43,424 nt of DNA from Acidobacteriota bacterium (GTDB lineage: Bacteria > Acidobacteriota > Terriglobia > Terriglobales > Acidobacteriaceae). The stretch is from contig QIAU01000161.1 in the NCBI GenBank assembly GCA_003225055.1, positions 1-43,424 of the forward strand, in the 5' to 3' direction. The translations under genes and the position numbers were made by a program. Under the pieces are notes generated by a model. That model was given only the letters and a program-made list of their open reading frames with translations, had not been told where the DNA came from and did not search any database. This document shows positions 4,091 to 8,536 of this stretch, piece after piece (position 1 is the first letter of the stretch; each line of letters opens with the position of its first letter).

Positions 4091-5515
4091 ATGGATCGGC
4101 GGGTTTTCCTCAAAGGTACTGGTAAAGCAGTGACACTCGGGGCAGCGACGTTGGCGTTGGGCGGCAAAGTGCTGGGCGCGAACGATCGCGTGCGCATCGC
4201 GGTGTGCGGAGTGCGTGGCCGCGGACACGATCACATCCGCGGTTTCCACAAAGTCCCCGGCGTAGAGATAGTGGCCCTGTGCGACGTCGATGAGAACGTA
4301 CTGAACCGCCGTCTCGCCGAGGTGGAAGCGCTCGGCGTCAGTCGACCGAAAGCCTTTGTCGATATACGCAAGCTGCTCGAGGACAAGGATGTTGACGCCG
4401 TCTCGATCGCCACGCCAAACCACTGGCACTCGCTCATTGCCATTTCGGCCTGCCAAGCCGGCAAGGATGTCTACGTCGAGAAGCCGGCATCGCATAACTG
4501 GTGGGAGGGGCGGCAACTGGTGGAGGCGGTGCGCAAGTACAACCGCATTTGCCAGCACGGCAGCCAGGCACGTTCCAATCCCGGCATGATCGAGGCGATT
4601 CGGCACGTTCGCGGAGGGCTGATCGGCGACGTTTACTTGGCGCGCGCTCTCTGCTACAAGTGGCGGGCTTCGATCGGGCACGCAACGCCGGAGCCTGTCC
4701 CCGCCGGCGTGCACTATGATCTTTGGACCGGTCCCGCACCTCTCAAACCGTTCACCCGTAATCGCTTCCATTACAACTGGCACTGGATCTGGGATACCGG
4801 CAACGGGGAGGTCGGCAATCAGGCAATTCACGAGATCGATATCGCGCGCTGGGGCCTGGGCGTAAACTTTCCGGTGCAGGTCTTAGCAGGGGGCGGCCGT
4901 TTCCTGTTCGATGACGACCAGGAGACGCCGAACGTTGTCAGCGCGACCTTCTGCTTCGAAGATTCCTCCGGCAAGCGCAAGATGATGGAACTGGAGGTGC
5001 GGCCTTGGATCACGAATCACGAGGCAGAGATCGGCACTGGAGCGTACAAGAGTTCCGGCCCGCCGCCGGCAGGACTGGCCACCCCGCCAAGCACGCCAAG
5101 ACCTCAGCCTGCGGGTGCTAATCAGAGCGGGCCGGTTGGTCCCGTGGACGCCAAGACGAACACGATCGGCAACATCTTCTATGGCTCGGACGGTTACCTG
5201 GCAATCGACACCTACGACGCTTACAAATCGTGGCTAGGGAATCAGGCCCGACCGGGACCCTCGGGCAAGGGCGATGGCGACCACTTCGCCAACTTTGTCG
5301 ATTGCGTTCGCAGCCGCCGGGCAGAGAACATCCATTCGCCGATTGAGGAGGCACATATCTCCTGTACCCTCCTCCATCTGGCCAATGTTTCCTACCGGCT
5401 CGGTCGGACGCTCAACTACGACCCATCCAGCCAGCAAGTGGTTGGCGACGATGAAGCGAACCGCATGCTGCGTGGCTCGTATCGCGCGCCTTACGTCGTT
5501 CCAGAAGCAGTCTGA
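4091..5515 (+). CDS. Tat-exported Gfo/Idh/MocA family oxidoreductase
   Basis: ATG at 4091 (474 aa) is chosen because it opens a twin-arginine signal, DRRVFLKGTG followed by a hydrophobic stretch to about residue 30; the frame is open further upstream but without a better start. A Rossmann NAD(P) site follows (IAVCGVRGRGHDH, then VALCDVDENVL). The family EKP motif sits in VYVEKPASHN near residue 131, and a GNQAIHEID block near 245 contains the usual catalytic His. These enzymes oxidise, reduce or epimerise sugars and cyclitols; exported versions are common in Bacteroidota and Acidobacteriota. A Pro/Gly-rich loop lies near residues 320-350. The next gene begins 12 bp downstream, so the two are probably co-transcribed. 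Substrate unknown. Confidence 0.88.
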   Translation: MDRRVFLKGTGKAVTLGAATLALGGKVLGANDRVRIAVCGVRGRGHDHIRGFHKVPGVEIVALCDVDENVLNRRLAEVEALGVSRPKAFVDIRKLLEDKDVDAVSIATPNHWHSLIAISACQAGKDVYVEKPASHNWWEGRQLVEAVRKYNRICQHGSQARSNPGMIEAIRHVRGGLIGDVYLARALCYKWRASIGHATPEPVPAGVHYDLWTGPAPLKPFTRNRFHYNWHWIWDTGNGEVGNQAIHEIDIARWGLGVNFPVQVLAGGGRFLFDDDQETPNVVSATFCFEDSSGKRKMMELEVRPWITNHEAEIGTGAYKSSGPPPAGLATPPSTPRPQPAGANQSGPVGPVDAKTNTIGNIFYGSDGYLAIDTYDAYKSWLGNQARPGPSGKGDGDHFANFVDCVRSRRAENIHSPIEEAHISCTLLHLANVSYRLGRTLNYDPSSQQVVGDDEANRMLRGSYRAPYVVPEAV

Positions 5516-5527
5516 CGGGAACGGCTG

Positions 5528-6370
5528 ATGGCGACGAGACGACAGTTCCTGGCTGCGATCGCGGCTACGACGCTGTGCGCGGCGGCATCGGCGAAGCCAA
5601 GGCGTGTCACCATAGGCGTATGCTCGCGCGACGTGGTCGCGGCAGCGAAATTCGGCTTCGACTATGTCGAGCCTGCCGCGGCCGACATCGCGGCCATGAG
5701 CGATGACGATTTCCGGCAGTTCAGGGAAACCGTGCTGTCGTCCAGCATCCGTTGCCACGCCTTTAACAGCTTCATCCGGCGCAAGGACCTGGTCGTGGTG
5801 GGAGAGCAACTACCGCTTGAGGAACTGCGAAAATACGTGGAGGGCTGCCTCGCGCGTTGCCGCAGCCTGGGCGCCTCAGTGGTAGTGTGGGGCAGCGCCG
5901 GCTCGCGCAACGTTCCCCAGGGTTTCTCGCGCGATCGGGCGAACGAGCAGATTGCCGAGTTCCTGCGTATGGCCGGCGACCTAGCACGCCGGCACGAGAT
6001 CGTGTTGGCAATCGAGCCGCTCCGCCGGCAAGAAAGTAACATTCTGAATAGCGGCGCCGAGGCGCTCGCAATGGTGCGCCGCGTCAAGCATCACAATGTG
6101 CGGATGATTATTGATTACTTTCATCTGCGCGAGGAGCACGAAGACCCGCAAATCCTGGCCACGGCGCGACGCGAGATCGTACACCTGCACTTTGCCAACC
6201 CGCACGGCCGCCTGTGGCCACACACCCTGACGGAGGATGGCGAGTACACGACATTTTTTCGGCTACTGAAAAGGACCGGCTATTCTGGCGGCATTTCGAT
6301 CGAAGGACGTGGATCGTTCGAAAAAGACGGGACGGCCAGCTTGGCCTTTTTCCGGCAGGCCCTCGCGTAA
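5528..6370 (+). CDS. Tat-exported sugar phosphate isomerase/epimerase-like TIM barrel
   Basis: 280 aa, starting ATRRQFLAAIAATT, a short Tat-type signal ending in an AASA cleavage-like site. The rest is a xylose-isomerase-like (AP endonuclease 2) TIM barrel: the FGFDYVEP opening strand, the VVVWGSAGSRN strand, LAIEPLRR carrying a metal-binding Glu, IIDYFHLREEHED carrying Asp/His, IVHLHFANPHG with the metal His, and GGISIEGRG at the end with the last Glu. Members isomerise or epimerise keto-sugars. It lies 12 bp after the oxidoreductase at 4091 and probably acts on the same or the next intermediate. Substrate cannot be read from sequence. Confidence 0.85.
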   Translation: MATRRQFLAAIAATTLCAAASAKPRRVTIGVCSRDVVAAAKFGFDYVEPAAADIAAMSDDDFRQFRETVLSSSIRCHAFNSFIRRKDLVVVGEQLPLEELRKYVEGCLARCRSLGASVVVWGSAGSRNVPQGFSRDRANEQIAEFLRMAGDLARRHEIVLAIEPLRRQESNILNSGAEALAMVRRVKHHNVRMIIDYFHLREEHEDPQILATARREIVHLHFANPHGRLWPHTLTEDGEYTTFFRLLKRTGYSGGISIEGRGSFEKDGTASLAFFRQALA

Positions 6371-7046: not shown

Positions 7047-7598
7047 CTATTGGGCCGATGAAGCGGCGCTCGCTCTGTTTAACATTTCCTTGAGACGTTC
7101 GTTCAGTTGCGTCACAATCCGGTAAACTGGCCCATCATCGAATACTGGACCCGCCTCACCCCATCCATTGCGAGGTGCGTACACGGCGGCGATGTCCCAC
7201 AAGTGCCCTGCGTCCTCGCAGCAGCTTGGATCATTTCCATGAAATTGCTTCAACTGCTGCTTCACCTGAGCGGCAACCAAATGGTTCTTGTCCCAGAACT
7301 GCACCGCGCGCGAATCGGAGACACGCTTCAGCGTTGGTCGAGTTGGTCGGTCCCAGTCGGTCGGAAGCATCGGCTCCCGAACCACAAACACTCGAACCGA
7401 TGCAGAATGAGCTTGCTCCAAAATGCGTTCCACTGCAGAGGCCCCCTGCAGACATTTTGGTCAAGTGGGCGAGACGAGCAGCAGGATGCGCGTGTCTGCA
7501 TTGGCAGCGTCAAAGCTTTTGCGGAACTCCTCAAGATTGGCTTGACTGAGCGAGACCAATGGGCGCTCTGGGGAGCTAGGTAACAACCGTTTGAGCAT
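7047..7598 (-). CDS. Thioredoxin-like selenoprotein candidate with in-frame UGA (UxxC)
   Basis: Read through one in-frame TGA at 7461-7463, the minus strand gives a coherent 183-residue protein from ATG 7598 to TAG 7047. It runs SLSQANLEEFRKSFDAAN, then DTRILLLVSPT, then X-PKC where X is the TGA codon, then LQGASAVERILEQ, VRVFVVREPMLPTDW, FWDKNHLV, a CCEDAGHLWDIAAVY block and a short tail. In the thioredoxin-fold relatives I know of this type, the X position is the first Cys of CxxC, so TGA replaces exactly the redox residue. A stable hairpin starts on the very next base (see 7418-7460). No other stop or frameshift occurs in the frame. Start choice is tentative, since no good ribosome site precedes 7598. 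Without selenocysteine machinery the gene would be a two-piece pseudogene. Confidence 0.6.
7418..7460 (-). promoter_or_regulatory. SECIS-like hairpin immediately after the UGA
   Basis: On the minus strand the TGA (7463-7461) is followed at once by CCAAAATG, then a single T, CTGCAG, a loop GGGGCCT, CTGCAG, seven unpaired bases, and CATTTTGG. CCAAAATG/CATTTTGG (8 bp) and CTGCAG/CTGCAG (6 bp) pair perfectly. The apical loop begins with G residues about 15 bases after the UGA and a lone U lies below the upper stem. This resembles bacterial SECIS elements such as that of E. coli fdhF (G-rich loop, unpaired U, similar distance). Function as a SelB target is inference. Confidence 0.6.
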
Positions 7599-7795: not shown

Positions 7796-8371
7796 CTATT
7801 GCGCGACCCTTCTCTCGATGCGCCGGTCGGGAATCAGCCACATGATGGCGACAATGACGTAGCCAGCGGCGGCGATCCACGGCTGCACGAACGCCAGCGG
7901 AATCGCTGCCGCGTAAATAGCTATTGAGATTTTGCCCTTTCTGTCGCTTCCAATAGATGTGGCCAAAGTTGAACCGTGTCCATGAATTCTGATGAGAGCC
8001 CGTGTCAGGATGAAATATGCGCTGGCCGCCAGCAACAGAACGATCCCGTACACGGCAACAGGCCACGAGTCGAGGTGATTCTCACCCATCCAAGCGGTAG
8101 TAAATGGAACCAGCGACAGCCAGAACAGCAGGTGCAAGTTGGCCCACAGAGTTGCACCGTTCACGCGCTGAGTTGCGTGCAGCAGGTGATGATGATTGTT
8201 CCAATAAATTCCGATGTAAACGAAGCTCAGGACGTAGCTCAGGAAAACAGCTATCACTGGCCTTAGGTCCGCGAGACTGGTTCCACCCGGTGATTTCATC
8301 TCCAGCACCATGATCGTGATGATCACGGCGAGAACCCCGTCGCTGAACGCTTCCAGGCGGCTTTTATTCAT
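7796..8371 (-). CDS. TMEM175-family (DUF1211) membrane protein, putative potassium channel
   Basis: 191 aa from ATG 8371, which directly follows a strong AGGAGGAGG ribosome site; the frame is open further upstream without one. The first helix carries the family signature FSDGVLAVIITIMVLEMK, matching the F-S-D motif that lines the pore in TMEM175 channels. More hydrophobic helices follow (VFLSYVLSFVYIGIYW, LWANLHLLFWLSLVPF, VAVYGIVLLLAASAYF, IAIYAAAIPLAFV, AGYVIVAIMWLI). The HHHLL segment after helix two is typical. Bacterial members form tetrameric K+-permeable channels. It is a single gene, facing the same way as its neighbours on both sides. Confidence 0.85.
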   Translation of the reverse strand: MNKSRLEAFSDGVLAVIITIMVLEMKSPGGTSLADLRPVIAVFLSYVLSFVYIGIYWNNHHHLLHATQRVNGATLWANLHLLFWLSLVPFTTAWMGENHLDSWPVAVYGIVLLLAASAYFILTRALIRIHGHGSTLATSIGSDRKGKISIAIYAAAIPLAFVQPWIAAAGYVIVAIMWLIPDRRIERRVAQ

Positions 8372-8536
8372 CCTCCTCCTTGCATCGTGCCATCGCCCAC
8401 AATGATTGATCGCAGGCGCCGCGAGTTTCGTGAAATCGTCGGCTTTTGGATTCTTCAAGCACGCTCCGCACCCGAGCGGAAAGTGCTTTCAGTTGAATTT
8501 GTCAGCTGTGTCATTTACAGCTCAGAACAGCATGAA

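Follow-up and report, generated by a model that had tools for sequence, protein, structure and literature searches.

Does the in-frame TGA of a thioredoxin-like gene from an Acidobacteriota bacterium mark a broken gene, or is it read as selenocysteine (Sec)? The question is raised by a stretch of 43,424 nucleotides (hereafter the window), in which the 183-residue translation of 7598-7047 on the minus strand holds a single internal stop, the TGA of codon 46 (7463-7461), in the context LLLVSPT-U-PKCLQGAS. An initial annotation made from the letters alone had seen one TGA in an otherwise coherent 183-codon frame, and the translation has no other lesion; it had also placed the UGA at the first-Cys position of a thioredoxin CxxC motif, which agrees with the SPT-U-PKC context and with the Cys that homologues carry there. 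Its further proposal, that the gene is decoded with selenocysteine, is supported by the comparative evidence, by the sel machinery of the genome and by conservation of both the UGA and the hairpin behind it; none of the refuting outcomes that the annotation had listed was observed, and we consider it very probable that the gene and its relatives form a Sec-decoding selenoprotein family. The features that enter the argument are given by their positions in the window:

7047..7598, minus strand: putative selenoprotein gene for a thioredoxin-fold protein with an SPT-U-PKC active site, 183 codons plus stop
7461..7463, minus strand: predicted Sec codon UGA (U46), first residue of UxxC; TGA at this position in 104 of 131 loci, duplicates included
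7452..7454, minus strand: codon TGT of Cys49, second residue of UxxC; TGC or TGT in the TGA-type loci listed, except L149 (TGA)
7218..7223, minus strand: vicinal Cys pair C126-C127; the CC pair occurs mainly in Sec genes with an upstream MerT-like gene
7418..7460, minus strand: SECIS-type stem-loop directly 3′ of the UGA, supported by folding, compensatory pairing and a covariance model

Reading frame, decoding machinery and stem-loop

A family HMM built without the window gene scores that gene at 166.5 bits, and in the family alignment conserved protein sequence flanks the in-frame UGA on both sides. A sequencing error behind the TGA was ruled out because the same TGA recurs in independent genomes. 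The initial annotation had proposed a search of the same genome for selA, selB, selC and selD, and all four are present: SelA scores 363.9 bits, SelB 355.6 bits in an open frame of 648 codons and SelD 347.8 bits, and the tRNA-Sec (69.4 bits) is called tRNA-SeC with anticodon tca (UCA) by ARAGORN. Across the phylum sample, selB (presence threshold, E 1e-60 or better) was found in 36 of the 37 genomes that carry the TGA-type gene versus 256 of 396 overall (hypergeometric P 8.8e-7, a value that ignores relatedness). The lone TGA-type genome without selB, G679, is 72% complete, and among the ten genomes having only Cys forms, nine carry selB and one (G239) does not. As a separate observation, the SelD gene of the window's genome (L034) is itself interrupted by an in-frame UGA where Sec usually lies in this protein, and its AG-U-ASKLSP sequence fits the UxxK motif given for Sec-containing SelD in Table 1 of PMC13188914.

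Bacterial SECIS elements are described, in the accessible part of PMC1088965, as stem-loops directly 3′ of the UGA with a G in a small apical loop, and in the present family a stem-loop with G in its small loop lies immediately 3′ of the UGA and is under selection. In the window, CCAAAAUG (7460-7453) pairs with CAUUUUGG (7425-7418) in a lower stem of 8 bp, a lone U at 7452 stands between the lower and the upper stem, and the upper stem CUGCAG (7451-7446)/CUGCAG (7438-7433) closes the loop GGGGCCU (7445-7439); the strands thus pair as in the two-part hairpin of 8 + 6 bp, with a 7-base G-rich loop and a lone U, that had been read from the letters. The minimum free energy (MFE) fold keeps both stems, adds two pairs within the loop and pairs the lone U. 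For the 46-nt piece that starts at the UGA, the MFE was -19.4 kcal/mol (z -3.58; 1 of 200 shuffles was as stable), and a 54-nt piece gave a weaker signal (z -2.03; 8 of 200 shuffles). The folding stability of the window hairpin alone is moderate evidence against chance, and it is the conservation across the family that lifts the hairpin far above chance. The conserved element is the upper stem with its G-rich loop; judged by eye from the family folds, the 8-bp lower stem is seemingly not general.

We compared the in-register pairs of the upper stem with a null in which synonymous codons were shuffled within alignment columns, keeping every residue and the codon usage of each column. The 90 non-redundant TGA sequences (L149, which has UxxU, was excluded) had a mean of 6.23 of 7 pairs in this unfiltered set, nine of them having fewer than five; the null gave 5.54 (sd 0.055), and 0 of 2,000 shuffles reached the observed value. 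The mean folding energy of the TGA sequences was -10.2 versus -7.3 kcal/mol (sd 0.22) in 200 shuffles. The average was 3.0 of 7 pairs in ten Cys homologues and in 11 with other residues, and the Cys homologues do not have the hairpin. Compensatory changes, which the initial annotation had named as a check, are thus present beyond the synonymous-codon expectation. In a second alignment (A3; 67 TGA rows with at least 5 of 7 pairs and at most 85% alike, window and L149 excluded), both sides of a pair had changed in 78 cells versus 20.3 in shuffles; paired cells made up 93.6%, a figure inflated by this choice of well-paired rows, and it fell to 62% or less when the partner was shifted by 1 to 3 columns.

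A covariance model (R1) built from this alignment, and hence without the window, recovered the window hairpin at 7463-7424 with 47.2 bits (E 6.6e-9), the next-best match in the 43-kb window scoring 13.9 bits. Among 22 Cys or other-residue loci searched with the same model, the best E was 2.2. The element varies, because four divergent TGA members match the model poorly or not at all (L023, 20.8 bits; L025, 10.5 bits; L022, 8.5 bits; L149, no match). The codon-preserving null and the recovery of the hairpin with a window-free model rule out a chance hairpin, and on this comparative evidence the stem-loop is selected as RNA. An Rfam scan of the window gave nothing at gathering thresholds; at the hairpin it returned only two matches, to unrelated lncRNA families (E 1.5 and 4.9).

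Distribution of the family and exchange of its active-site residue

A profile of 11 members matched 65 of 399 Acidobacteriota genomes in a class sample and 50 of 396 in a phylum sample. The samples overlap in some genomes, and remote proteins account for a few weak matches. Three of the 50 phylum-sample matches are remote DsbA-like proteins, and a minority are Cys or other-residue forms. A GTDB-wide scan, which reaches close relatives only, returned five loci, all in Acidobacteria and all with TGA at the Sec codon. Among 100 related genomes, eight (the window's own included) had a match, each with TGA. The window protein had no match at E 0.01 among 72,556 plasmid records.

Most family members carry the motif [S/D]PTUxxC(L)xG, and Sec is the common and Cys the rare state. 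At the Sec column, 131 loci (duplicates included) have TGA in 104, Cys in 14 and another residue in 11, the column being absent from two; none of the 129 readable loci has Trp. The initial annotation had asked whether this column is Cys or UGA only, and the answer is yes for the large part formed by the TGA and Cys loci and no for the 11 loci with other residues. The Cys loci comprise 11 true homologues and three remote DsbA-like proteins (L111-L113). Among the other-residue loci, L095-L101 and L104 group in one clade, L103 lies outside it, and L105 and L106 are remote. In that clade (eight tree rows), other residues stand at the Sec/Cys position and in place of the second Cys, for example in SPTRPESLAGATA, and its members have no redox pair, no hairpin and no MerT-like neighbour. 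Two further loci deserve mention as observations in their own right. L149 (genome G665) has TGA at both active-site positions (UxxU, PTUPKU) and was missed by the hairpin model, and contig C1 of genome G583 carries three paralogues (L145, L148 and L110), of which two read TGA at the Sec column and the third reads TGT.

A tree was computed by a quick method with a midpoint root from 117 of 129 rows (97 Sec, 11 Cys and 9 other), after removal of duplicate and short rows and of the remote L105, L106 and L111-L113. The Cys forms are scattered on it, with eight changes, at least five of which are forced by well-supported branches; eight of the nine other-residue rows fall in one clade. This pattern suggests repeated change from Sec to Cys in a Sec-dominant family, a direction that is suggested only, because the tree is quick and its root a midpoint. 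As far as the accessible text of PMC1794560 goes, 33 Cys-to-Sec events in 17 families were counted there versus 15 Sec-to-Cys events in four; given these counts, the family would run against the usual direction for thiol oxidoreductases.

Predicted fold, cellular location and gene neighbourhood

Structure prediction from an 11-row alignment gave a thioredoxin-like fold (mean pLDDT 90.4, pTM 0.86), in which U46 lies between strand E36-42 and helix H47-63; the model puts the predicted Sec where the first long core helix of the thioredoxin fold begins. Foldseek had three matches below E 0.001, namely ResA, GPX8 and a thioredoxin-like protein. The best VIA match was 7djk (Z 13.8 over 135 residues, rmsd 2.8), followed by GPX8 (12.7), DsbE (12.3) and ResA (11.5), with DipZ- and DsbF-type chains in the Z range of 11 to 12.7. 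In sequence searches, the window protein had no Pfam match at E 1 and the 11 members matched no thioredoxin family at E 0.1; for the thioredoxin-clan families (Thioredoxin, Redoxin, AhpC-TSA, Thioredoxin_2 and others), neither the window protein nor any of the 11 members rose above a curated cut-off, and the 11 members reached the cut-off of no other Pfam family. No NCBIfam model (June 2026), NF045683 and NF047660 included, was above cut-off for these proteins either, the best E of the 11 members being 0.016. A known family as their identity was rejected for want of a match in Pfam, in NCBIfam and in a PDB sequence search whose best E was 0.22.

An N-terminal hydrophobic segment was found in 80 of the 93 Sec genes that could be tested (99 Sec genes in all), and a few other members have, by eye, a lipobox-like N-terminal end. 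With such ends, most members are most likely exported or anchored, and their domain would face the periplasm.

Among Sec genes whose upstream flank is 540 nt or longer, a MerT-like gene directly precedes 49 of 94, compared with 3 of 10 Cys genes and 0 of 9 other-residue genes. The MerT, MerR and DF profiles used here were built from the family's neighbours, and the 49 includes the founding members, whose adjacency to MerT is built in for that reason. In 20 regions of about 12 kb, 15 had a MerT-like match, all within 1.5 kb of the centre, the place of the family gene, and none farther away. Support that does not depend on these profiles came from curated models: when five MerT-like neighbours were scanned with them, two passed the Pfam MerT cut-off of 32.9 (47.6 and 67.7 bits) and one passed the MerC cut-off of 27.6 (46.0 bits); the neighbours of L013 and L161 scored 37 and 33 bits against merT_RC607 (cut-off 130) and were weak against the MerT and MerC models. 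Ten neighbours scanned yielded one MerA candidate, a MerA/glutathione-reductase-like protein in L013 that is below the MerA cut-off. Upstream on the same strand, a MerR-like gene was found in 24 and a homologue of the DF family (NF049942) in 17 of 61 loci; the flanks of some of these loci are short. Other neighbours, named by eye, are CusA-like, CDF-like and P-type-ATPase-like proteins. About half of the family can thus be placed in mer-type operons, an assignment in which few neighbours were scored with the curated MerT and MerC models, and mercury is not the sole setting of the family, because 45 of the 94 Sec genes have no MerT-like gene upstream.

Two neighbouring frames were also recorded. 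At L161, the frame 5312-5977, between the MerR-like and the Sec gene, matches NF049942, a family known for a predicted selenoprotein, with Cys in the motif, and its DF and MerT-like parts form one open frame. At L077, a DF-like frame about 485-815 nt after the Sec codon contains an in-frame TGA in FG-U-RIYRE, which may be another Sec codon or simply a stop.

The window gene belongs to a clade of 27 rows (SH-aLRT 97), of which 25 directly follow a MerT-like gene and 25 possess the added vicinal Cys pair. The CC pair occurs in 23 of the 49 Sec genes with an upstream MerT-like gene versus 2 of the 45 without (Fisher P 1.6e-6), and these two, the window copy and L123, are also the two members of the 27-row clade that have no MerT-like gene upstream. 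The window copy thus belongs to a mer-linked clade and is yet an orphan, with no MerT-like gene found and no membrane anchor. It has no N-terminal hydrophobic segment; mer-like genes gave no match better than E 3.5 in the window, which places the copy outside any mer operon, and a MerT-like gene was found in the window's genome neither with Pfam MerT nor with a profile that was positive in four of four comparison genomes. No Shine-Dalgarno sequence was evident by eye upstream of the ATG at 7598, and this start codon is uncertain. The only same-genus genome in the sample, G001, had no family match. Differences between the window copy and six relatives are concentrated at codon position 3 (0.56-0.61 versus 0.28-0.37 at position 2, the lowest, in all six pairs), and its end branch measures 0.55, next to 0.58 for L063 and 0.46 for L013.

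Two further observations concern the surroundings. Directly upstream on the same strand (7796-8458, minus strand) is a TMEM175-type potassium channel gene (PF06736, 102.8 bits). On the plus strand, two nearby and apparently broken frames (1109-1471 and 1947-2681) look like pieces of one transposase, which we take to be of IS110 type from its DVHKE-like start.

Competing readings and relation to known selenoproteins

In the mechanism that we propose, SelB with Sec-tRNA(UCA) would bind the hairpin just 3′ of the UGA at 7463-7461, and selenocysteine would be inserted at the first position of the UxxC active site. The product would present a selenolate-thiol pair at a thioredoxin active site, on a domain that probably lies on the periplasmic face in most relatives. 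A MerT-like gene precedes about half of the Sec genes tested and nearly all of those in the window's clade, many of them under a MerR-type regulator. It could be objected that the hairpin is a by-product of a conserved protein, its GAS-motif codons in particular, and that near-cognate suppression or decoding as Trp accounts for read-through of the UGA; the loop codons do encode the conserved residues CLxGAS. We regard this as exceedingly improbable, since the pairing exceeds a null that preserves residues and codon usage (0 of 2,000), the hairpin is absent from Cys homologues, the column holds Cys in these and Trp in 0 of 129 loci, and selB co-occurs with the TGA-type gene. A narrower objection would make the window copy a young pseudogene or 5′-truncated relic of a genuine Sec-decoding family, an orphan out of use. 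The missing hydrophobic segment and mer neighbours, the genome in which no MerT-like gene was found, the start with no visible ribosome-binding site and the same-genus G001 without a match all fit this objection, but the frame has no other lesion, the hairpin is complete, changes concentrate at codon position 3 (although most of that divergence is older than any recent decay) and the end branch is in the range of its neighbours L063 and L013; decay of the copy is accordingly improbable in our judgement, and if it had occurred it would leave the claim for the family untouched. If its unusual 5′ end is expressed, the window copy, having lost anchor and operon, would probably be a soluble UxxC oxidoreductase or metal-binding protein.

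What the family does is a question of a different order, and its mercury function is to be taken as a lead. The MerT-like adjacency in the window's clade makes a soft-metal role the likeliest ancestral role there: as a selenium-based relay for soft metals or for redox chemistry beside a transporter, the protein may have captured or reduced a thiophilic soft metal, Hg(II) for instance, or disulfides damaged by metal, with the selenolate as the high-affinity group, a proposal that we find plausible and hold tentatively. The family may instead consist of general thiol/selenol oxidoreductases of the periplasm, akin to TlpA/ResA and related to copper or cytochromes, for example, the MerT link being that of one sub-lineage. 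TlpA/ResA/DsbE and GPx chains among the fold neighbours, the 45 of 94 Sec genes with no MerT-like gene upstream and the CusA-like, CDF-like and P-type-ATPase-like neighbours named by eye favour this account, which is a real possibility about which we have some doubt, as it leaves aside the window's clade with its upstream MerT-like gene in 25 of 27 rows and its added vicinal Cys pair in as many. The most far-reaching form of the soft-metal proposal is an unlikely one: the family would be ancient and Sec-dominant in Acidobacteriota, and its members, anchored in the membrane next to MerT-like transporters, would relay Hg(II) or a different soft metal by their selenolate and so take the place of MerP with selenium chemistry. 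Sec would then be ancestral, and the Cys forms would be downgrades that arose later and more than once.

Read with the standard code, the family's genes would look broken or truncated, and Acidobacteriota appear to use selenocysteine in a family that is absent from the published lists examined. The family is easy to miss because its Cys homologues are rare; the authors of deep-Sep state, in the accessible part of PMC12013277, that their method may filter out selenoproteins without Cys homologues. Relatives of the window gene often adjoin mercury-transport-like genes in soil bacteria, and this mer-like setting offers a direct test of whether the strong affinity between selenium and mercury is used biologically in metal handling. 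With its scattered Cys forms and the clade in which neither active-site residue is kept, the family is well suited to a study of the direction of Sec/Cys exchange.

A search of the literature, including the accessible parts of PMC13188914, PMC9312934, PMC12013277, PMC1794560, PMC5029168 and PMC1088965 and with supplements, preprints and most subscription papers lying outside it, found no description of the family. Table 1 of PMC13188914 (2026) covers 119 selenoprotein families and subfamilies by names, domains and motifs rather than sequences, and in a comparison by these the family's motif was recognised in none of its entries. Its known UxxC thioredoxin-like selenoproteins include Trx, Prx-like, thiol:disulfide interchange (PF13098), DsbA/DsbG-like, SaoT (NF040730) and HUIPC-motif (NF047660) proteins. 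The present family resembles them in the Sec-first UxxC, the thioredoxin-type protein and the in-frame bacterial SECIS, and differs in having no sequence match to them, a motif of its own and Sec as the common with Cys as the rare state. Mercury-related selenoproteins are listed there as well, namely a putative mercuric transport protein with Sec (PF02411) and a metal-binding protein/putative mercuric reductase with UxxU; because the table holds many UxxC thioredoxin-like and mercury-linked selenoproteins, the kind is already known. NCBIfam has a further mercury-related entry, a MerT/CopZ fusion-like selenoprotein (NF045683).

With these mercury-related proteins the family shares selenocysteine in a mercury-type setting. 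To judge by their names, they carry Sec in a transporter, a fused domain or a reductase-like protein, whereas here it would be in a separate thioredoxin-fold protein, and the adjoining MerT-like gene reads Cys in the copies examined. MerP, the partner of MerT that binds Hg(II) in the periplasm and has a ferredoxin-like HMA fold, is similar in being probably periplasmic, in having a dithiol/selenothiol site and in adjoining a MerT-like gene; the family, with its predicted thioredoxin fold and UxxC, is at most a work-alike and not a member, and for the HMA domain the window protein had no Pfam match at E 1 and the 11 members none above cut-off. The DF family (seleno)protein NF049942, named 'hypothetical protein DF' in the accessible part of PMC12013277, shares operons with the family (two of two neighbours tested pass the cut-off) and is a different, shorter protein of about 104 aa with Cys in its motif in the copies examined. 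As judged from the sequence comparisons, the family is new within a known kind, and it stands out by its unusual dominance of Sec and its frequent link to mer genes.
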